Shown here: piece after piece, positions 1,564 through 10,211 of the stretch
Layout: each line of letters begins with the position of its first letter
Numbering within the stretch: position 1 is the stretch's first letter
Program-made: the position numbers and the translations under genes
The notes under the pieces: generated by a model
Database searches by the model: none
The model's input: only the letters and a program-made list of their open reading frames with translations
Told to the model about the DNA's origin: nothing
Assembly: GCA_017453765.1 (NCBI GenBank)
Contig: JAFTEG010000021.1
Coordinates: 1 to 10,211, forward strand
DNA from: Selenomonadaceae bacterium
GTDB taxonomy: Bacteria; Bacillota; Negativicutes; Selenomonadales; Selenomonadaceae
Length of the DNA: 10,211 bases
Reading direction: 5' to 3'

Positions 1564-1601
1564 TTGATTTAGTAAGCTTTACAAAAAATATTTTTGCAAA
1601 C

Positions 1602-1640
1602 AAAAAAGCGACGTGAAATTTTCAACACGCCGCCTTTTTT
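1602..1640. terminator. Bidirectional intrinsic terminator between convergent genes
   Basis: The arms GCGACGTG (1608-1615) and CACGCCGC (1626-1633) pair around a 10-base loop. The single imperfect pair is A/C on the plus-strand RNA and a tolerated G-U on the minus-strand RNA, so the stem is better for the minus-strand operon. Six A (1602-1607) and six T (1635-1640) flank the stem and give a U-tract in both directions. It lies 38 bases after the HD gene and about 20 bases after the stop of the minus-strand FtsZ-like gene, so it can end both transcripts. Confidence 0.88.
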
Positions 1641-1660
1641 ATTGCGAAGTTTAAAGTTTT

Positions 1661-2347
1661 TTAGCCGAGAAATTTTCCTGCGATAACGGCAACTTTCACC
1701 GTGTTGCCTAAAGATTCGTCAACCGTCACGCTCCAAATAATTTTAGCGCCGTCACTTATCGCCGCTTGAATTTTTTCCATTGCCGCATTAATTTCACTCA
1801 TCGTGCAGGCGTCGGCAGAACCTTTGAAGTTTGCCAATACGCCGTGTGCAGATTTAATGTCGTGACCTTCAAGCGCATTGTCAACGCAATTTTTTACCGC
1901 GTGTTCACCTTCCGCCGCGCCGATAACCGCCACTGCCTTGCCGGAATTTTTCAGCACGCTTTTAACGTCGTCAAAGTCCAAACCAACCGGTCCGTCAACA
2001 TTCAGAATGTCATTGAAGGCGTTGGCAACTTCAAAAATCTTGTCATTAAAATTCTGCGCGGGAAGTTGGATAATCGCGTCACGCAAATTTTTATTGTCGG
2101 CGGCTTGCGCTTCCGTCACAAGGTAAATTTTCAGCGCGGGAAGGCGTGAGAAAAATTTTTCCGCGTAATAGACTTCGCGTCCGTCCGAAATTATGAAAAC
2201 AATATCATCTTCGGCAACGTTTTTAACAATCTCGTCGCAAGATTTTCTGTCGGTAACTTTAAAAATTCTTACGCCGTCAATCTTTTTCATCGTGTCCGCG
2301 TCAATATTAATACTTCCGATTATCACTGCTGAGATTTTTACATTCAT
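1661..2347 (-). CDS. Short FtsZ-related protein lacking the GTP-binding loops
   Basis: The protein is 228 residues, against about 350-400 for FtsZ. Residues 120-228 follow the FtsZ C-terminal domain closely: GLDFDDVKSVLKN resembles the T7 synergy loop and following helix (FtsZ NxDxxDV), and it is followed by GKAVAVIGAAEGEHA, SAHGVLANFKGSADACTMSEI and a terminal VTVDESLGNTVKVAVIAGKF, the usual end of the FtsZ globular core. The two aspartates of the T7 loop remain; the asparagine does not. Residues 1-119 resemble a shrunken nucleotide domain (strands SAVIIGS, DDIVFIISDG, LKIYLVTEA), but neither GGGGNA nor the tubulin signature GGGTGTG is present, so GTP binding is doubtful. The variable C-terminal tail that binds FtsA/ZipA is also absent. 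The start is the ATG at 2347 with AAAGGAG nine bases upstream. It is the last gene of the minus-strand cluster, 50 bases after the WYL gene. FtsZ kinship is seen by eye from motifs; the role is unknown. Confidence 0.72.
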   Translation of the reverse strand: MNVKISAVIIGSINIDADTMKKIDGVRIFKVTDRKSCDEIVKNVAEDDIVFIISDGREVYYAEKFFSRLPALKIYLVTEAQAADNKNLRDAIIQLPAQNFNDKIFEVANAFNDILNVDGPVGLDFDDVKSVLKNSGKAVAVIGAAEGEHAVKNCVDNALEGHDIKSAHGVLANFKGSADACTMSEINAAMEKIQAAISDGAKIIWSVTVDESLGNTVKVAVIAGKFLG

Positions 2348-2377
2348 AAAGAATTTCTCCTTTCAAATTTCATTTCC

Positions 2378-2406
2378 AAATTTAACTGTGTGAAAATTTA
2401 ACTGTG
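2378..2406. repeat. Direct repeat of the WYL gene's stop region
   Basis: AAATTTAACTGTG (plus strand) occurs at 2378-2390 and 2394-2406, a 16 bp period. The second copy contains the last codons and stop of the WYL gene (stop at 2398-2400), so the first copy is a duplicate of that gene end lying in the spacer before the FtsZ-like gene. Confidence 0.75.
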
Positions 2407-3441
2407 CGCCAGCATAATCTTTTCCGCCATATCGTGAATTGCCCTGCGCAGTGACTCCGGCTTTACAACCTCAACGTTTTCGCCGTACTGCATTAGCCAG
2501 TACTTAATCGCGTTTTCGTTGACTTTCACTTCTACCAAAATTTTTTCGTCGGCACTTTGCAAGATTTTAAAATTTTTGCCGAACCAATCAACAATCGTGT
2601 CAATCATAAATTCGCGCGTCCAAAAATTTACCCAAATGCTTTTGCCGCCGAACATATAAATATTTTGCGCCATATGTTCCGGCAAGTTCAAGCCGCCTAC
2701 GCAACCTTCAATTTTATTTTTTTGGTCGCGATTATCCCGCGCAGATTCGGCAAGCATCGTGACTTCAGTCATGCGGTCAATGCGGTAATGCGAAATGTTG
2801 TTGTAGCCGTCGGTGTTGGCGATAAGGTAGTAATTGCCGTTCGTCGCCGCCATTTGGTACGGGCTGACTTTGTACGGCGTCGTCCTGCGCGGGTGCAGTT
2901 TTAAATCCTTGCCGTACTTGTTGTAAATGAAGGTGACTTTTTTCTTTGCGTGAATTGCGTCGTTCAAAATGTCAAGTGACGTCATAACCTGCGCGTTGTC
3001 GGAATGTTGCAGGCGCGGCAGGTTGATAATATGCTTTACTTTCGCGCTGAAATATTCGTTGGCAAGATTTTTCAGCTTGTCGATAAGGGATTGAACTTTG
3101 TCGGTGGGAATATTTTTTGAAAAAAGCACGCTGTCAATGAGCATACGCAATTCCGATTCGTCGAAGTCGCGTACAAGCCAACTGCCTTTTTTCGAAGAAA
3201 TGATATTTATTCCGGCGTCTTTGAGGGAGCGAATATTTTTGCTGACAGAGCGGCGGTCACAAATTTCGCCGTTAAAATCTTTGGCAAGGTAGTCAATGAT
3301 TTTTTGTTGAGTCAATGGGTGCTTGGCGTCGGAATGTCTTTGCAAAACTTGTAAAATTTTTATGTCAAGCAGACGAAGTATCGGCGCGTCCAATTCGTCG
3401 GATTCGTCGTTAAATGTATCAAGCAAATTTTCTTCCACCAT
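2398..3441 (-). CDS. WYL-domain transcriptional regulator (HTH + WYL + WCX)
   Basis: The protein is 347 residues. Residues 24-90 form a winged helix-turn-helix (TQQKIIDYLAKDF ... DRRSVSKNIRSLKDAGI ... GSWLV). Residues 155-230 form the WYL domain: KKKVTFIYNKYG, LHPRRTTPYKVSPYQM, then NYYLIANTDG in place of the name-giving W-Y-L, and the typical SHYRIDRM strand. Residues 265-345 match the C-terminal WCX region. WYL domains sense ligands, in some cases nucleic acids or nucleotides, and control DNA binding; such proteins often regulate accessory and defence loci. The ATG at 3441 has AAAAGGAG eight bases upstream. The 162-base gap before it is filled by a repeat containing twelve ATCGAT palindromes, which could serve as an operator, although it may equally be neutral. 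The protein probably controls the surrounding cluster. Confidence 0.88.
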   Translation of the reverse strand: MVEENLLDTFNDESDELDAPILRLLDIKILQVLQRHSDAKHPLTQQKIIDYLAKDFNGEICDRRSVSKNIRSLKDAGINIISSKKGSWLVRDFDESELRMLIDSVLFSKNIPTDKVQSLIDKLKNLANEYFSAKVKHIINLPRLQHSDNAQVMTSLDILNDAIHAKKKVTFIYNKYGKDLKLHPRRTTPYKVSPYQMAATNGNYYLIANTDGYNNISHYRIDRMTEVTMLAESARDNRDQKNKIEGCVGGLNLPEHMAQNIYMFGGKSIWVNFWTREFMIDTIVDWFGKNFKILQSADEKILVEVKVNENAIKYWLMQYGENVEVVKPESLRRAIHDMAEKIMLAHS

Positions 3442-3458
3442 TGTCAGCGCTCCTTTTA

Positions 3459-3621
3459 GATCGATGGATCGGTGGATCGATGGATCGATGGTTATCGGTG
3501 GTTATCGGATCGATGGTAAACTATCGATCCAACCACTATCGATCTATCGATCTAGCCACTATCGATCTAGCCACTATCGATCTAGCAACTATCGATCTAG
3601 CAACTATCGATCTATCGATCT
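3459..3621. repeat. ATCGAT-rich tandem repeat between the Hsp70 and WYL genes
   Basis: Twelve copies of the palindrome ATCGAT lie in about 160 bases. On the right, a 15 bp unit CTATCGATCTAGCCA (or ...GCAA) starts at 3544, 3559, 3574 and 3589, followed at 3604 by a half-unit that already lies in the end of the Hsp70 gene. On the left (3459-3516) the sequence changes to GATCGATGG-type units with GGTTATCGG variants, roughly complementary to the right part. Fifteen is a multiple of three, so on the minus strand each unit places a TAG in frame with the Hsp70 gene after its real stop. The left edge stops one or two bases short of the WYL gene's ribosome binding site. Confidence 0.93.
3498..3536 (-). 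other. Strong hairpin within the ATCGAT repeat
   Basis: GTGGTT (3498-3503) and GGATCGAT (3507-3514) pair with ATCGATCC (3523-3530) and AACCAC (3531-3536) around the 8-base loop 3515-3522; the bases ATC (3504-3506) form a bulge. This gives 14 base pairs. No U-tract follows on the minus-strand RNA, so it is not a standard terminator. It may stabilise or process the mRNA between the Hsp70 and WYL genes. It arises where the two inverted halves of the repeat meet. Confidence 0.6.
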
Positions 3622-5256
3622 AAATCCTTTTTTAATCGTGACGGTTTTGTTTACGCCGCTTTTCTCATCCCGCGCCGTAACTTCCAGCGTGCCGCTCTTG
3701 TCGTAGCTGAATGTAACGTTAATGACTGGGACGCCCGCCGGTTCGTTGTCGTCAATTTCAAGCAGCAAGTCGCCGTAAAATTCGTGCGCGTCGATATCGG
3801 CAATGTTTTCGCAGTCCGAGCCCGCTTCATAAATGTAAATCGGTATCGAAGTCTGATTGTCCATTGTCGTAGTGTAAAGCTTCGTCTTTTCGCAGGGGTA
3901 AACGTCGCCTTTAAAAATAATTTTCGACAAAACGCGGCTTATACCGTCCGGCGCCAAAACCTCAACGCCGAGTGAATGCGAAATGATATCTTCAAACTTT
4001 TCAGTGTCGGAAGGGACGTCTTGACTTTCAATCTGCGCGGCTTGATTTTCGGCGGGCTCAAGAGTTTCAGTTTGTGCAGTTTTTTCAGCTGATTCAAGAT
4101 TTTTAGCAGGTTCAGATTTTTCAAGTTCGGTTTTAACGCCGCTGAAAGTCTGTGCAACGAAACACGCGCCGACAGCTACCAACGTGCCTAAATCAAGCTG
4201 AGTATCGGTGCGCTTGCCGAAAATATTTTCAACGTCCGCTTTAACCTTCGGAATGTGGCAACTGCCGCCTGCAAGAATCACCGTGCCAATTTCGTCAAGC
4301 GTGAACTTGTCACTGTTCGCGATAAATTTTTTTATGCGTGAGGTAACTTTATCATAAAGCGGCTGACAAATTTCATTGAACTTGTCGCGCGTCAAGTCAA
4401 CGGTAAAGTCATACGTCTTGCCGCGATAGGTGAAAAGATTCATCAAGTCCGCCGTGTAAGTTTCCTGTTCACTCAACGCGATTTTAGCATCTTCCGCCGC
4501 CTCACGTACGCGCCCTGTCATTGAAAAATATTCGTTGTAGTCGAGACCGGAAATTTCCTGCTCGGATAAGTCCAATTTCGTATCGCGCTGAATCAGCTCA
4601 ATGAAGTAGTCGTAAATCAGCGCGTCGAAGTCGTCACCGCCCAATTTTCTGTCGCCGTCAATATCCAATGCGCGGTACGTGCGATTTTTTTGGTCAGCTT
4701 GCAAAACGCTGATATCGAACGTGCCGCCGCCTAAGTCCACTACAAAAATTTTTTCGTCAAGCCCCAACTCGTGAACAACGGCAACCGCCGCCGCCATTGG
4801 CTCGGTGATAATCTGCAACACGTTAAAACCAGCGTCGACGCCGGCTTTTTTTGTTTCGTCCTTTTGATTCGCAGTGAAGTATGCAGGGACGGTGATAACG
4901 GCGCTGATTTTAGTGTCGTCGTCGCAGTGAAGTTTTTTAATAATCTGCCGCTTGACTTCGCTTAAAATTTCAGCGGCAACCTGCGTAGGCGTGAAGGTTT
5001 TTCCGCCGACAGTCCACGTCTTGCCGAAGTCCGCCATATAAGTTTTTGAAGAGCGAATCACGTTAAGCGGGTCGATAACGCCGCGCTTTTTCGCCTTTTC
5101 GCCAATAAAAATATTTTTCTCCGCGTCGACGTACAGCACGGAAGGCAACATGTCACCGCTGCCTGCAAAACGTATAAAATTCGGTCTGCCGCGCCGAAGG
5201 TAACACGCAAGAGTGTTGGTCGTACCTAAATCTATTCCTACAAAAATTTCATTCAT
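3604..5256 (-). CDS. Hsp70-family chaperone (DnaK-like), lidless and with an inserted linker
   Basis: The protein is 550 residues, against about 610-640 for DnaK. The ATPase domain (about 1-370) keeps the family motifs: phosphate loop 1 GIDLGTTNTLACY (8-19), ITVPAYFTANQ, TEPMAAAVAV with the catalytic glutamate (151-160), phosphate loop 2 VVDLGGGTFDISV (172-184), and the adenosine motif VILAGGSCHIPKV. It should bind and hydrolyse ATP. Residues 371-420 are a Glu/Ala/Lys/Gln-rich low-complexity stretch not found in DnaK. Residues 421-545 look like the beta-sandwich substrate domain (ISHSLGVEVL, then YIYEAGS, GTLEVTARD). The helical lid is absent: the protein stops at FRSIDR within the start of the ATCGAT repeat. 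The ATG at 5256 has GGAGG seven bases upstream. With no DnaJ or GrpE beside it, it is unlikely to be the housekeeping DnaK; a dedicated chaperone for this cluster is my inference. Confidence 0.9.
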   Translation of the reverse strand: MNEIFVGIDLGTTNTLACYLRRGRPNFIRFAGSGDMLPSVLYVDAEKNIFIGEKAKKRGVIDPLNVIRSSKTYMADFGKTWTVGGKTFTPTQVAAEILSEVKRQIIKKLHCDDDTKISAVITVPAYFTANQKDETKKAGVDAGFNVLQIITEPMAAAVAVVHELGLDEKIFVVDLGGGTFDISVLQADQKNRTYRALDIDGDRKLGGDDFDALIYDYFIELIQRDTKLDLSEQEISGLDYNEYFSMTGRVREAAEDAKIALSEQETYTADLMNLFTYRGKTYDFTVDLTRDKFNEICQPLYDKVTSRIKKFIANSDKFTLDEIGTVILAGGSCHIPKVKADVENIFGKRTDTQLDLGTLVAVGACFVAQTFSGVKTELEKSEPAKNLESAEKTAQTETLEPAENQAAQIESQDVPSDTEKFEDIISHSLGVEVLAPDGISRVLSKIIFKGDVYPCEKTKLYTTTMDNQTSIPIYIYEAGSDCENIADIDAHEFYGDLLLEIDDNEPAGVPVINVTFSYDKSGTLEVTARDEKSGVNKTVTIKKGFRSIDR

Positions 5257-5273
5257 TATTTTTCCTCCGGTCA

Positions 5274-5387
5274 GAGTGTTTTCAAATATTTCAAAAGTGT
5301 CGACTAAAATTTAAGTGTCGACTAATATTTCAAAAGTGTCTGCTAAAATTTAAGTGTCAGCTAAAATTTAAGTGTCAGCTAAAATTT
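5274..5387. repeat. 18/21 bp tandem repeat between the methylase and Hsp70 genes
   Basis: Five clear units run head to tail: AAGTGTCGACTAAAATTT (5295-5312), a 21-base variant (5313-5333), AAGTGTCTGCTAAAATTT (5334-5351), then two identical copies of AAGTGTCAGCTAAAATTT (5352-5369 and 5370-5387). A degenerate 21-base unit lies at 5274-5294. All unit lengths are multiples of three; on the minus strand the full units carry a TAG in frame with the upstream methylase gene (peptide pattern KF-stop-LTLKF-stop). The methylase gene's own end (5390-5415) resembles the unit. Confidence 0.93.
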
Positions 5388-5405
5388 AAAACGTTTCGAC
5401 TTGAA

Positions 5406-6632
5406 TTAAAAATTTCGCGTCTTCAAAAACGCCGACACTAATTTTGGAATGTTGTTTTCTTCGCCAATTTCATCAGAAATTTTTTTAATATAATCGGTAT
5501 TGTGATCTATGTGCCGCGCAAAGTAAATCATCGTGTCCAAAAGTGACTGCTTTTTCAGTGCATTGTTCACCAAAGACTCCACAAACGCCATTAACTCAAT
5601 AATTTTGTAAGTCGCAACGAATACGCCGAAATTATTCGGAATGGATTTTTCAACGTGCCACGGATAGCAGTTAATGAAAAATTCGTTGACAAGCCAGTTT
5701 TCAAAAACAATTTCAAAGTGGACGTTGAATGTTTCGTGCAACGGCTCCAATTCTTTAAATTTTTCCACCGCCTTATCAAGCGCGTTTTCATCAAGGTTTT
5801 CAAGGTCAATGTTTAAAAATGCCTTAAACGCGCCAAATAAAACCTTGCCTAAATTTTTAGGCTCCTTGCCGTACAAAGTTTCCATGACGCCGCTTAACAT
5901 TAGCTTGACAAATTCTTTGTAGTCAAAATTTGCCTCATTCCAAACCGCTTGAACAGATTTGTAGATAATATCTTTGGATTCGTACATTTCAAAAATCTGC
6001 GGAAGGTCGTCAAATTTTTCAGCCTTAATCGTCTCGTCAATGATATCAAGAAAGACGCCTACAACCGCCAGCCGCTGATCTATGGTCAAGTCGCGTTCCT
6101 GCAAAATTTTAATCGCCGTCAATCGGATTTTCTGCGCGTGAGGCAAGATCGAACGGGGGGGGGTATAGGTGTTCGCTAAAAAGTTGGAAGTATCGGCAAC
6201 AGATTCTTTAACCAATTTAAATTTAATCGGCAACGCGGAAAAAAGAATCAAATCTGCGGCAACGGGACAAGACAAGGTTAAACTGCGCTCCGGCACCGGA
6301 ATGCCTTCAGCCATATTTATAGTGCGCGGATAGGTTTTACAAGTGCGCGATAAAAAATCTTCGCCGTACTTAAGTTGAATTTTGCAAAGATTTTCGGCGC
6401 TGAGAAATGGACAAAAACCGTTTTGACACAGCACTACGGCGTAGTCTTGAGATTTATCGGAAAATTTTATGTGCGAAGAAATTTCTTTATCGGCGGATTC
6501 GGCTTGCCGGTATTTTTGCAAAGAGTCTTCGTCAATGCTGATTCTCCAAAATTTACAGCACGCAGCATTGCATTTTTGTCCGTCGCATTTAAATGTTTCA
6601 AAATACTCAGGTTGCAGGTAATTGACTTCCAC
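5406..6632 (-). CDS. Flagellin lysine-N-methylase (FliB-like) family protein with a C9 tract
   Basis: The protein is 408 residues, matching FliB-family length. The N-terminus carries the family cysteine signature: LQPEYFETFKCDGQKCNAACC (C16, C21, C25, C26) followed by KFWRISID, then C69, C74, C83, C98 (RTCKTYPR) and C122 (LSCPVAAD). These cysteines are thought to bind a metal or iron-sulfur centre. FliB of Salmonella methylates lysines of flagellin; no flagellin or flagellar gene lies in this window, so the target here may be another protein. The remainder (about 160-408) is helical with no recognised motif. The start is a GTG at 6632, with AAGGAGG eight bases upstream. Codons 157-160 (ACC CCC CCC CGT) contain nine C in a row, as sequenced in frame. 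It lies between the two Hsp70-like genes in the same direction. Family call is good; substrate unknown. Confidence 0.85.
   Translation of the reverse strand: MEVNYLQPEYFETFKCDGQKCNAACCKFWRISIDEDSLQKYRQAESADKEISSHIKFSDKSQDYAVVLCQNGFCPFLSAENLCKIQLKYGEDFLSRTCKTYPRTINMAEGIPVPERSLTLSCPVAADLILFSALPIKFKLVKESVADTSNFLANTYTPPRSILPHAQKIRLTAIKILQERDLTIDQRLAVVGVFLDIIDETIKAEKFDDLPQIFEMYESKDIIYKSVQAVWNEANFDYKEFVKLMLSGVMETLYGKEPKNLGKVLFGAFKAFLNIDLENLDENALDKAVEKFKELEPLHETFNVHFEIVFENWLVNEFFINCYPWHVEKSIPNNFGVFVATYKIIELMAFVESLVNNALKKQSLLDTMIYFARHIDHNTDYIKKISDEIGEENNIPKLVSAFLKTRNF
6155..6163 (-). repeat. Homopolymer C9 tract in the methylase gene (possible phase-variation site)
   Basis: Nine G on the plus strand, hence nine C on the coding strand, at codons 157-160. 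I worked out both slips: with eight C the frame reads V-R-S-C-L-T-R-R-K-S-D and stops, giving about 170 residues; with ten C it stops after about 174 residues. The tract therefore acts as an on/off switch in principle, and it is in the on state here. The surrounding gene is AT-rich and I noticed no comparable G/C run elsewhere in the window. Confidence 0.75.
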
Positions 6633-6677
6633 AAAATTTTCCTCCTTTTTAGGTTTTAGCCGACAGCTTGTAATTTT

Positions 6678-6733
6678 TAATCCTAAATCCTTAATCCTTA
6701 ATCCTAAATCCTAAATCCTTAATTCTTAATCCC
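6678..6733. repeat. 7 bp tandem repeat between the Hsp70-like and methylase genes
   Basis: Eight consecutive heptamers of TAATCCT or AAATCCT run from 6678, the last two degenerate (TAATTCT, TAATCCC). The array extends into the Hsp70-like gene: its last codons GGG ATT AAG AAT and stop (6719-6721) are made from it. The other end stops some 30 bases before the methylase ribosome binding site. Form and length recall the short tandemly repeated heptamers of some cyanobacteria, without implying a relation. Confidence 0.93.
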
Positions 6734-8302
6734 CCTCACTCTGCCGGGATGTAAAATTTTTTCTTCGACTAAAGTAATTTTGGATCTGCCGTTTACCGTT
6801 ACGTCTTCAAAAAATTTTACGCAGAGTTGACCCGCCGCGTTGACATTCATTTTAAAAAGAATTGCCTGCGTCGAAGTGTAAAGGCGCGAATCAAGCCTAA
6901 TGTCACCTAAAAAAACCGCGTCGTCACCTGCGGCGGGGAGTTCGGCTTCATTGCAGTAACTTTGATAAAAAGACACGTGCCAATGATTTTTTTTCAGCTC
7001 ATCAATCAAAATCGGCTTGTACGGCGTCACAAAGCCGCGCAGTTCATTTCGCTTTATGCAACGAAAAAATTTGTCGCCGCGCAGAATGTAAATGCCGCAC
7101 GGTACGATATTTTTCACCTTGACGCGCAGATTTTCTTCGTCCGTCATATATCGGTACTTCGCCGCACCGATAGCCGCACCGTCGGTAATGCCGTCGCGTT
7201 CAAAATCTTCCGCGCAAAAAATTTCATCGCCGAAATATTTTTCCAACACGTCCAAAAAATAATCAATGGACGAGGTGCCGCCGAAAACTTTTATCGCCGT
7301 CACGTCGGAAGGCGCAATCCCCGCGTCGTCAAGCACGTCATCAAGCATTGACGTAATTTGTGACTTCACGCCGTCCAATTCAATCGCGCTGAAAACTTCC
7401 TGCCGCGTCAATTCAAATTCATAAAAATTTCCCTTGTCGTCAATCAGACTGCCGCCGGAACTGTCCTCTTCGTCAAGAAAAATTTCTTCTTTCATCTTCT
7501 CAATCAGTGAAATCAGTTCGTAACCCGCCTTGTCGTCGGCAAAAACTTGGTTAATCGTGTCGGCGTACTTTTTCAGAAAAATGTTAAGAAAAATGCCGTA
7601 GTCAATGTTCGTGCCGCCGTAATTCAAAGTTGCGGCTGAAAGTTCAGTGACGGCGAAAGTTTTGGCAGTACGTTCAAGCTTGAATAAATTCACGTTAAGC
7701 GCCGTACCGCCGAAATCGAAAATTAAAACAATCTGCGCGTTGTCACCTGAAAAATGCGCGGCGTCGGTTTTAATTTTAAAAAATTCGTCGCACGAAAAAA
7801 ATTCGTCGCACGAAAAAATTTCTGCAAACGGCGCGGCAATGATTGAAGAAATCGGAACGTCGGCATTAATCGCGGCTTGCTTAATAATTTTTTTCTGCAC
7901 CTCCGAAAAGGCGGCTGGTACCGTAATCGTCACGTCAAAATTTTCATCTTTCGCCGCCTGCAGTGCAATGTGTTTCCAAATTTTCGCCAGCATATCGGTC
8001 AAGGCATCGGCGGCTGAAATTTCGCGGTCAAGATTCGGTATGAACTTGCTCCACGATTTACGCGCCACTTTCGGCATAATGCGCGAAACTTTATTGTCAA
8101 GGTCAAAGCTGGACTTCGCGCCGTCGCCTACCTTGACTTCAACGGCATTTTTAATTTTGTCGTAGAAAATGACTGCAGGCAACGCGGCACTTCCCGCCAT
8201 ATTCATGTTGAGTTTGATAGTTTGAACGCGCCTAGTTTGCGGAGAAATTTTTGCCGCCTTAATATCGCAAGCGCCGAAGTCTATGCCGACGTAAGTTTTC
8301 AT
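6719..8302 (-). CDS. Divergent Hsp70-like protein with a decayed ATPase site
   Basis: The protein is 527 residues. It keeps the Hsp70/actin-like frame: YVGIDFGACDIKAAKI (4-19), FDVTITVPAAFSEVQ (122-135), LIFDFGGTALNVNLF (193-207), IKVFGGTSSIDYFLDVL (337-353) and DGAAIGAAKY. Key residues have changed: loop 1 reads GACD instead of GTTN; NEPTAAA has become AAPFAEI, losing the catalytic glutamate; and DLGGGTFD has become DFGGTALN, losing the threonine and second aspartate. ATP hydrolysis is therefore doubtful, though binding may remain. Residues 390-527 are beta-rich and may replace the substrate domain; no lid is seen. FSCDEF is duplicated at 163-175 by an 18 bp tandem duplication. Its ATG overlaps the stop of the coiled-coil gene (ATGA), indicating coupled translation and probable partnership. 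Confidence 0.8.
   Translation of the reverse strand: MKTYVGIDFGACDIKAAKISPQTRRVQTIKLNMNMAGSAALPAVIFYDKIKNAVEVKVGDGAKSSFDLDNKVSRIMPKVARKSWSKFIPNLDREISAADALTDMLAKIWKHIALQAAKDENFDVTITVPAAFSEVQKKIIKQAAINADVPISSIIAAPFAEIFSCDEFFSCDEFFKIKTDAAHFSGDNAQIVLIFDFGGTALNVNLFKLERTAKTFAVTELSAATLNYGGTNIDYGIFLNIFLKKYADTINQVFADDKAGYELISLIEKMKEEIFLDEEDSSGGSLIDDKGNFYEFELTRQEVFSAIELDGVKSQITSMLDDVLDDAGIAPSDVTAIKVFGGTSSIDYFLDVLEKYFGDEIFCAEDFERDGITDGAAIGAAKYRYMTDEENLRVKVKNIVPCGIYILRGDKFFRCIKRNELRGFVTPYKPILIDELKKNHWHVSFYQSYCNEAELPAAGDDAVFLGDIRLDSRLYTSTQAILFKMNVNAAGQLCVKFFEDVTVNGRSKITLVEEKILHPGRVRGIKN
7783..7818. repeat. Perfect 18 bp tandem duplication inside the Hsp70-like gene
   Basis: ATTCGTCGCACGAAAAAA is present twice without a gap (7783-7800 and 7801-7818). 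It is in frame and duplicates the residues FSCDEF at about 163-175. The copies are identical, so the duplication is probably recent. Confidence 0.92.
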
Positions 8303-10211
8303 TGCGCCTCACCGTCGTATTTTAGGACAACCATTTTGCCTTCCGAGCAGAAGTTTTCCGTTTCGCCGCCTTCCGTCAAGTAATCCATAAAGTACGGCAG
8401 GCGCTCCACTTCATCAATCAAATTATCTTCTTCCGCATTCGCCGTCTCTTTGCGCGTCACGCTCATTCTGTCAATGTCATTTGAAGTCATCGGATTTTTC
8501 GGCAACACCGGCACCGTGTAAACGTGACAAGAGGCAAGGTAGTCATTAACGCGCTTAAGAAATTCGGAATAAAATTTAAATTCTTCTTCGCGCATTTTCT
8601 CATCTTCAGCGTCCAAAGTCTCCTGCCGCGCACCGCGATAAATTGAAATCGGAATCGTAGCAAGGAAGAATTTTGACAGCGTGTTAAAAAATGCGTCGGT
8701 GACTTCCTCTGACAGCGCGTCTTCATTGAATTTTTTGCGCCGCACCTTGTCTGTAACCTTTTTCAAATTTTGGCGGTAGTTTTCAATAATGCGAATGAAA
8801 TTCTCTTTCTTGGCAAATTTTGACGTGGCGAGAAATGACGTAATGCCTGAAAGGTTGCTGGCGATTTTGAGGTTTTGAAAAACTTCGTCGGGCTTGTCCG
8901 TGAAAAAAATTCTGCCGGTCGGCTTAAGGTCAAAATTCTCAATCGTCAAAAACGTCGGCTCTTTCATCGAGTCCAAAATTTTTTCAAGGGCGGAAATGCT
9001 TTTTTGCACCGAATCAAGCAAACTTCCCTGCGCGTCGAATTGCGTCTTAACGTCACCGAGAATTTTTTCCTGCGTGTCAAGCTGGGATTTAAATTCGCCG
9101 ATACTTTGAACCTGCGTTTCAAGTTGCGCCTTAACTTCTGAAACATCGGTTTTAACGCCGTCAAATTCATTCTTAACGCCGTCAAATTCAGATTTAAAAT
9201 CGTCAACCGCAGTCTTAACGCCGTCAATGTCAGATTTAACGCCGCCGATATCAGCCGTAACGCCGTCCGCATTTTGAACCTGCGCGATTTGCGATTTAAC
9301 TTCGTCAACGTCTGATTTTACAGCGTCGACATCAGCTTTAACGCTGTCGACATCAGCTTTCACGCCGTCAAATTCAGATTTAAAATCGTCAACTGCAGAC
9401 TTAATGCCGTCAAATTCTGTCTTAACGCCGCTGATACTTTCAGTCTGCGTCTTGTAATCGTCCAAAAACTTTTGCTGTTCGTCAAGGCGCGTTTGAAGAT
9501 TTTCCAATGTCTGCTTATTTTCGTCAAACTTCGCTTGAATGGCATTGAAAGTATTTTGTATCACTATAAAATTACTCTTCCACTGCACCAGCGCGACGTG
9601 GTGTTTTTGCAGGACGTTATTGTAATCGGTCAACTTCTGCGTGAAGTCTTTGTGTTCATCCTCAATCGCGGTAAGGCGTTCATCGGCTATCGGTTCACTT
9701 TCGGCAGGCGCGGGACGTTCTTCAACCGTCTGCACGCGATTTTCAACGGTTTGAACTTGGCTTTCGACGTTGTGAACTTCATTTTCGACGTTCTCTACTT
9801 GACCTTCAACAGATTTTAATTCTTCGTCCAAATTATTAAATTTCGCGTCAAGATTTTTTATGCCGGTGTCAAGGATTTGTAAATTGTCGTCAAAAGTTTT
9901 CAGCCCTTCGACCATTGAGTTGAAGTGGTCCGCAATATTTTTAACGTCCGCAATAAGGCTGGTTATGGTTTCGTCGTAGTTTTTGCCTTGAATAGTCTGC
10001 ACGCTTTTCTGAAGGTTGTCCGAGCGTTTTTGCAACGCGCTAAGTTTTGATTCGAGTTCGGAAATACCTTTGCCGTCCTGCTCATCTTCCAAAACTTGAA
10101 GGCGTTCGGATAATTTTTCGGTATCGATTTTTGTCGCGAAGTGCTGATCTTTGTCAACTAAGCCCTGTGCTTTACGGCTAGCCTCTGCGGCAATTTTTTC
10201 AATGTTTTTGA
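8299..10211 (-). CDS. Long coiled-coil protein of unknown function, N-terminus outside the window
   Basis: The frame stays open to the right edge (upstream residues include KNIEKIAAEASRKAQGLVDK) and has no in-frame ATG there, so the true start lies beyond 10211; the TTG at 10092 is simply an internal leucine codon. At least 637 residues are visible. Bases 8965-10211 encode an almost continuous coiled coil: heptads such as VENVENEVHNVESQVQTVEN and a strongly repetitive block of (D)GVKxDVDxVK units (about 9130-9435). The last 220 residues (from EPTFLTIENFDLKP) form a separate mixed domain with aromatic helices (FFNTLSKFFLATIPISIYRG) that I do not recognise. There is no signal peptide or obvious membrane span in the visible part. 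It is translationally coupled to the degenerate Hsp70-like gene by a 4 bp overlap. A scaffold, exchange-factor or client role with that protein is only inference. Confidence 0.85.
   Translation of the reverse strand, partial: KNIEKIAAEASRKAQGLVDKDQHFATKIDTEKLSERLQVLEDEQDGKGISELESKLSALQKRSDNLQKSVQTIQGKNYDETITSLIADVKNIADHFNSMVEGLKTFDDNLQILDTGIKNLDAKFNNLDEELKSVEGQVENVENEVHNVESQVQTVENRVQTVEERPAPAESEPIADERLTAIEDEHKDFTQKLTDYNNVLQKHHVALVQWKSNFIVIQNTFNAIQAKFDENKQTLENLQTRLDEQQKFLDDYKTQTESISGVKTEFDGIKSAVDDFKSEFDGVKADVDSVKADVDAVKSDVDEVKSQIAQVQNADGVTADIGGVKSDIDGVKTAVDDFKSEFDGVKNEFDGVKTDVSEVKAQLETQVQSIGEFKSQLDTQEKILGDVKTQFDAQGSLLDSVQKSISALEKILDSMKEPTFLTIENFDLKPTGRIFFTDKPDEVFQNLKIASNLSGITSFLATSKFAKKENFIRIIENYRQNLKKVTDKVRRKKFNEDALSEEVTDAFFNTLSKFFLATIPISIYRGARQETLDAEDEKMREEEFKFYSEFLKRVNDYLASCHVYTVPVLPKNPMTSNDIDRMSVTRKETANAEEDNLIDEVERLPYFMDYLTEGGETENFCSEGKMVVLKYDGEAQ
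9130..9435. repeat. Internal heptad-coding DNA repeats of the coiled-coil gene
   Basis: Variants of a 21-base unit (plus strand, GCCGTCAAATTCAGATTTAA type, with GTCGACATCAGCTTTAACGC variants) code for heptads such as DGVKADV, DSVKADV and DAVKSDV. A 32-base stretch is identical at 9176-9207 and 9362-9393, encoding AVDDFKSEFDGV twice. The spacing of 186 bases is in frame but not a whole number of heptads. Confidence 0.85.

Follow-up and report, generated by a model that had tools for sequence, protein, structure and literature searches.

In this work, we describe a gene cluster for Hsp70-like and associated proteins in a Selenomonadaceae genome (NCBI GenBank assembly GCA_017453765.1, further G000). 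The analysed stretch, called here the window, comprises the entire contig JAFTEG010000021.1 (G000:C36) of 10,211 nucleotides. The host assembly has 2.09 Mb in 431 contigs, is 69% complete, and its source is a rumen bacterium related to Quinella. Six minus-strand genes occupy positions 1661-10209 (Table 1), and read 5' to 3' they are joined by a 4-nt overlap followed by gaps of 86, 149, 162 and 50 bases. The layout given in a preliminary description of the sequence, i.e. six genes of one direction with gaps below 165 bp and a terminator behind the last one, was thus confirmed, and so were its family labels for the Hsp70-like (cut-off 20.6 bits), WYL, FtsZ-like and FliB-like products.

Table 1. 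Genes and other features of the window
Feature	Position	Strand	Evidence and remarks
Coiled-coil protein	8299..10209	-	N-terminus missing, contig end cuts gene
Degenerate Hsp70, presumably catalytically dead	6719..8302	-	PF00012 56.8 bits; start overlaps coiled-coil stop by 4 nt
FliB-type lysine N-methylase	5406..6632	-	NF038110 235.7 bits (cut-off 85)
Hsp70-B	3604..5256	-	PF00012 278 bits; ATPase motifs intact; beta substrate domain without lid
Intergenic ATCGAT-type repeats, strong stem-loop	3442..3603 (repeat stretch about 3442-3622)		TRF; fold z -5.5
WYL/WCX transcription regulator	2398..3441	-	PF13280 49.2 bits (WYL cut-off 21.8), PF25583 35.5 bits
FtsZ-derived pseudo-GTPase	1661..2347	-	PF12327 (FtsZ_C) 51.1 bits (cut-off 27)
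Intrinsic-terminator-like hairpin with U run	1596..1645	-	fold z -5.3

Since the window is a whole contig, the cluster is truncated by the contig end, and its upstream part lies on contig C172 of the same genome. This contig carries genes for a small coiled coil and for Hsp70-A, then the first 21 codons of a coiled-coil gene, where it stops. An unbroken arrangement is present in G051:C19, with small coiled coil, Hsp70-A, coiled coil (664 aa), degenerate Hsp70, FliB and Hsp70-B in this order, and the first readable codon of the window corresponds to codon 47 of the 664-aa protein. The ends of C172 and C36 were compared without joining them. The six genes previously described therefore stand as to identity and order, but they do not make up the complete cluster. 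Promoter scanning of the window returned 27 sites against 14.7 expected and terminator scanning 17 against 17.8, neither of which was used as evidence, and no Rfam RNA element was matched in the window.

The two Hsp70-like products of the window differ in their motif columns, in line with the earlier view of one intact but lidless Hsp70 and one degenerate one. The degenerate protein reads GACDIK for GTTN and DFGGTALN for DLGGGTFD, and has M and A at the places which we take to be Lys70 and Glu171 of DnaK; with catalytic Thr, Lys and Glu replaced at all three places examined, it is presumably catalytically dead. In Hsp70-B the phosphate-1 loop and both the Lys70-place and Glu171-place residues are intact. 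No VWA stretch was matched in this protein by the Pfam scan, while Hsp70-B of the injection locus L068 (one copy scanned) is longer and has VWA-type matches.

Coiled-coil proteins of the set have 593-737 aa and a hydrophobic N-terminus, and their C-terminal part of about 200 aa consists of a helical part and a beta domain with weak GrpE resemblance. The Pfam scan of the coiled-coil protein was considered for the best 25 of 56 matches. Identification of this protein as a proven GrpE was rejected for now, the fold resemblance being weak and the sequence similarity marginal. A GrpE profile of 11 sequences, run against 801 open reading frames (ORFs) including those of the window, matched solely L169_02. 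In comparison with the DnaK-GrpE system, neither a sequence-level GrpE match nor a J-domain match was found in the window, and the set has instead a degenerate Hsp70, lidless Hsp70s and the long coiled coil with its hydrophobic N-terminus. Elsewhere in the same genome, locus L169 (G000:C221, 145-6446) holds another Hsp70 cluster, in which the Hsp70 gene is accompanied by genes for a protein of 356 aa that matches the GrpE family above cut-off, for a PP2C phosphatase, for a VWA protein and for a Ser/Thr kinase.

The unit (small coiled coil)-Hsp70-A-coiled coil-degenerate Hsp70-Hsp70-B is conserved, and we met it in three contexts. Type II, the kind present in the window, occurs also in G051, G002, G023, G011 and G063. 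All five relatives have the small coiled coil, Hsp70-A, coiled coil and degenerate Hsp70, and the 4-nt overlap between the latter two genes is kept in all six loci. Hsp70-B is present in the window, G051, G002 and G063; in G023 another gene stands after the degenerate Hsp70, and in G011 the contig ends. Type I loci open with the genes for sheath protein F7, F8, VgrG (F9), F10 and F6, then Hsp70-A and one or two coiled-coil genes; they go on with the degenerate Hsp70, usually at least one further gene, Hsp70-B (about 690 aa in most), F4 (about 950 aa, with a weak Hsp70 match) and F5. Sixteen such loci have the sheath gene on the stretch, 14 of them together with F4. Ten belong to the genus, and the others to G129 (other family of the same class), Anaerovibrio lipolyticus (L129), Ruminococcus (L147, L149), a Lachnospiraceae metagenome-assembled genome (MAG; L152) and a Desulfovibrionaceae MAG (L133), the last of which could result from wrong binning. 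A short form, type III, was found in G034, G019, G006 and G043. In G043 (L086) its neighbours are trmD-like, glycosyltransferase and HypF-like genes, and the same ORF families stand at the other three loci; lack of the coiled coil was not counted in L070 and L086, where an antisense ORF overlaps its place in the greedy ORF caller.

The homologous type I loci contain a contractile sheath protein, which by its model appears closest to the sheaths of Streptomyces contractile injection systems (CIS) and PVC. The hub of L068 matches PF04717 with 44.9 bits (cut-off 23.8), with the VgrG models of NCBIfam remaining below their cut-offs, and the best PDB match of the tube-like F8 profile is Hcp1 at a weak E of 0.4. 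Solved-structure profile searches with F7 and F10 gave no usable match, and absence from the VIA-align lists was not taken as exclusion of a family. A phage origin of the injection genes was considered and rejected, as the sheath, tube-like and hub proteins scanned had no PHROG match. The scanned ORFs of the window included no sheath, tube or hub gene. The genus also has a more divergent second sheath type, sheath-b (G000:C236, i.e. L177, and L179-L183, L185), often accompanied by two tube-like genes and, on stretches that extend far enough, by an F4-like gene of about 890 aa related to Hsp70; at L190 (2998-7534) two sheath genes stand in tandem.

In trees of the degenerate Hsp70 (35 rows) and of Hsp70-B (32 rows), rooted at midpoint only, type II forms one clade (100/100), grouped with type I sequences from G056, G033, G013 and G051 (100/97 and 100/98); in the Hsp70-B tree the C428 copy of G000 itself also falls in this group. 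The type III sequences likewise make up one clade (100/100), located elsewhere among the type I branches. The parsimonious reading of these topologies would be that the injection genes were lost twice. For 16 of the 25 type I rows in the degenerate Hsp70 tree the fetched stretch includes a sheath gene, and the remaining nine (L073, L074, L076, L082, L083, L085, L087, L145, L148) are contig fragments or default-labelled, L074 being not settled. Long branches were flagged there for L129, L133 and L147, whose rows were kept; in the Hsp70-B tree L089_14 and L171_06, type I by default label, are other Hsp70s on long branches.

A full-length degenerate Hsp70 (E at most 1e-150; next match 2e-65) was found in 24 of 66 genus genomes. 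It accompanies all 17 with sheath-a, two of 11 with sheath-b only or fragments (G023, G058), and five of 38 without a sheath match. The division into sheath-a (above 450 bits) and sheath-b (about 350 bits) is a score-based grouping made here, and the G000 copy on C410, cut by the contig end, was placed in sheath-a by 719 bits to a profile built here. The cassette can thus exist without sheath, also in G006, which is rated 99% complete. At the level of phylum, 13 of 398 genomes (G000 included) have a sheath match. Ten sheath-first stretches were fetched, and the cassette was present in G129 alone; eight of the other nine give sheath-b-like scores of 363 to 415 bits, some being cut. The ninth, G072, is a single-contig genome belonging to the same family, and its score of 820 bits is sheath-a-like; here the locus runs sheath-tube-VgrG-F10-F6-F4-F5 with no cassette, which makes the cassette look like an element optionally inserted between F6 and F4.

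Given the gene order, the homology to the cassette of sheath/VgrG loci and the position in both trees, we consider it probable that the cluster is a free-standing paralogue of the Hsp70 cassette from contractile injection loci of gut Firmicutes. No sheath genes adjoin the cassette in the window, and FliB, WYL and FtsZ-like genes are its variable neighbours, suggesting a dedicated chaperone machine reused apart from its weapon. The idea of a chaperone machine, put forward earlier from this sequence alone, gained support from the conservation of the coiled-coil, degenerate Hsp70 and Hsp70-B set over many genomes and inside contractile injection loci. The module might instead still belong to the injection apparatus, serving in trans sheath machines encoded elsewhere in the genome; G000, G051, G002 and G011 indeed have sheath-a besides the window-type module, and G023 has sheath-b. 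We find this unlikely, as G063 (76% complete) carries the module with no sheath match, no sheath match was obtained in the four genomes of type III either, of which one is 99% complete, and type I loci possess their own cassette.

Known contractile systems recycle the sheath with ClpV-type AAA+ ATPases, and to our knowledge they have not been described with dedicated Hsp70s. Francisella ClpB is reportedly treated together with type VI secretion. As compared with contractile injection and type VI systems, relatives of the cassette stand within loci that also encode a sheath fold and a VgrG-type hub, whereas the window itself is devoid of sheath, tube and VgrG genes, and the homologous loci hold Hsp70-type genes inside. 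A description of contractile injection loci from these groups with Hsp70 genes inside was not found in the literature, which was covered by titles and abstract beginnings, with subscription journals sparsely represented. PilZ-DnaK proteins of Myxococcus are reportedly compared with Streptomyces injection systems just as another cell-death system (PMC10313047).

The FliB-type product matches the curated family of flagellin lysine N-methylases over its length, although the gene is not placed beside flagellin. FliB-like matches occur in all 66 genus genomes, one to nine in each. Its sole close relative, a 67% identical copy, stands at the same place in G051:C19, while the other copies, outside the cluster, show at most 43% identity over the greater part of their length, with short matches reaching 49%. 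One could think of a surface-filament island, in which the Hsp70s would escort flagellin or a similar protein, FliB would methylate it and WYL would regulate the set. Besides the score above the curated cut-off and the identical placement in G051, a reported control of extracellular fibrils in Myxococcus by an Hsp70-family protein was counted in favour of this view. However, FliB occupies the interval between the degenerate Hsp70 and Hsp70-B in only two of four readable window-type loci (absent from it in L060 and L063), its matches are spread over the whole genus, and the window has no flagellin gene, which leaves the island quite improbable, even though Quinella bins carry nearly all flagellum genes (PMC9585023). 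In the main text of the same article the terms FtsZ, chaperone and type VI do not occur. Short tandem repeats (18/39-mer and 7-mer) also build up other gaps of the cluster, at 5285-5389 and 6677-6732, and differ in sequence from the repeat of the gap preceding WYL.

This latter gap folds strongly over 148 of its 162 bases (3456-3603), with no T tail, and as it consists of strongly folding repeats, one transcript across all six genes is not secure. The 17-mer CTATCGATCTATCGATC of the repeat occurs 95 times in the 2.09-Mb genome (overlapping sites included) and never read backwards. The ATCGAT-type repeat is a dispersed family present on other contigs of its own genome, and the strong fold was noted at the one place tested.

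Beyond the gap, the WYL/WCX regulator has both domains and nothing unusual. WYL matches are present in 16 of 66 genus genomes. A FtsZ-like gene lies within 5 kb in six of the 14 WYL loci read (window, L079, L155, L156, L157 with a broken WYL, L163) and in the other eight it does not; five of the six have no Hsp70 genes on the fetched stretch. Behind Hsp70-B of readable window-type loci, the FtsZ-like gene was found in two of three and WYL in one of three. Close relatives of the FtsZ-like protein (at least 65%) exist in three other genomes; in G002 the gene is a neighbour of WYL and in G063 of Hsp70-B, and in G023 it lies away from both. Residues 34-227 align with seven genus FtsZ proteins (hhalign E 7e-30). 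In comparison with FtsZ, the C-terminal domain and T7-loop aspartates are retained (the second Asp in 47 of 50 family members), but about 40 residues of the GTPase domain are missing, as is the GTP loop: GGGTG is found in none of the 50 members (window and 49 relatives), as the description of a GTP-loop-free FtsZ relative implied. At L091, L093, L094, L095, L096 and L155 full FtsZ genes adjoin a GTP-loop-free relative of 214-274 aa.

We read the WYL and FtsZ-like genes as a second unit which came to sit behind the cassette. Two unrelated units, namely an Hsp70 module whose last gene is Hsp70-B and a pair of WYL and FtsZ-like genes controlling division by FtsZ capping, are a serious though lesser possibility, compatible with the paralogue reading. 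The recurrence of the pair away from Hsp70 genes, the stem-loop before WYL and the retained T7 aspartates speak for it, but in G063 the FtsZ-like gene directly follows Hsp70-B with no WYL, and the link to the module is then not specific to the window. A single function shared by all six genes, as proposed initially, did not hold up, since FliB, the FtsZ-like gene and WYL recur at window-type loci with the frequencies given above and the last two also without Hsp70s; of the adjacency expected for the six, the coiled coil, degenerate Hsp70 and Hsp70-B stay together, and FliB, WYL and FtsZ-like genes are scattered. A defence or abortive-infection island under WYL control was also considered and is not favoured on its PADLOC matches. 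WYL models match (best E 2e-29) and Hsp70-B matches the candidate-defence model PDC-M61B (E 1e-6, 25.6 bits), but the remaining matches are weak or generic coiled-coil ones, family-profile scans recognised no nuclease or toxin in the cluster, and homology to injection loci accounts for the Hsp70 core, so that such an island is highly improbable.

For the free-standing cassette the following mode of action may be proposed. The coiled-coil protein would be held at the membrane via its hydrophobic N-terminus, and its GrpE-like head could open the nucleotide cleft of the two active proteins, Hsp70-A and Hsp70-B. The degenerate Hsp70, probably translationally coupled with the coiled coil, may belong to the same complex as a structural or regulatory subunit, and this complex would hold, load or dismantle a large filamentous client. 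In type I loci co-occurrence points to the sheath/tube machine or its cargo as this client; in the window it might be another surface or filament protein, perhaps methylated by FliB, a reasonable guess because FliB adjoins. WYL probably regulates the FtsZ-like gene, whose product could cap FtsZ filaments via the retained T7 face. A much bolder proposal, to which we give little credence at present, is that in gut Firmicutes the contractile injection machines are driven by Hsp70/actin-type ATPases in the role that ClpV has in type VI systems, the cassette and F4 (about 900 aa) charging or dismantling sheaths, and that the window holds a domesticated, membrane-tethered derivative for filament handling; Hsp70-like F4 adjoins most sheath genes read.

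The results tie unnamed Hsp70-like genes of uncultured rumen bacteria to contractile injection loci for which no description was found, and place the chaperone part as free-standing in two separate clades. Tests could use genes from Anaerovibrio lipolyticus An883, a named isolate. Should the complex exist, it would be a dedicated Hsp70 machine that includes a pseudo-Hsp70 and has a scaffold of its own resembling an exchange factor.
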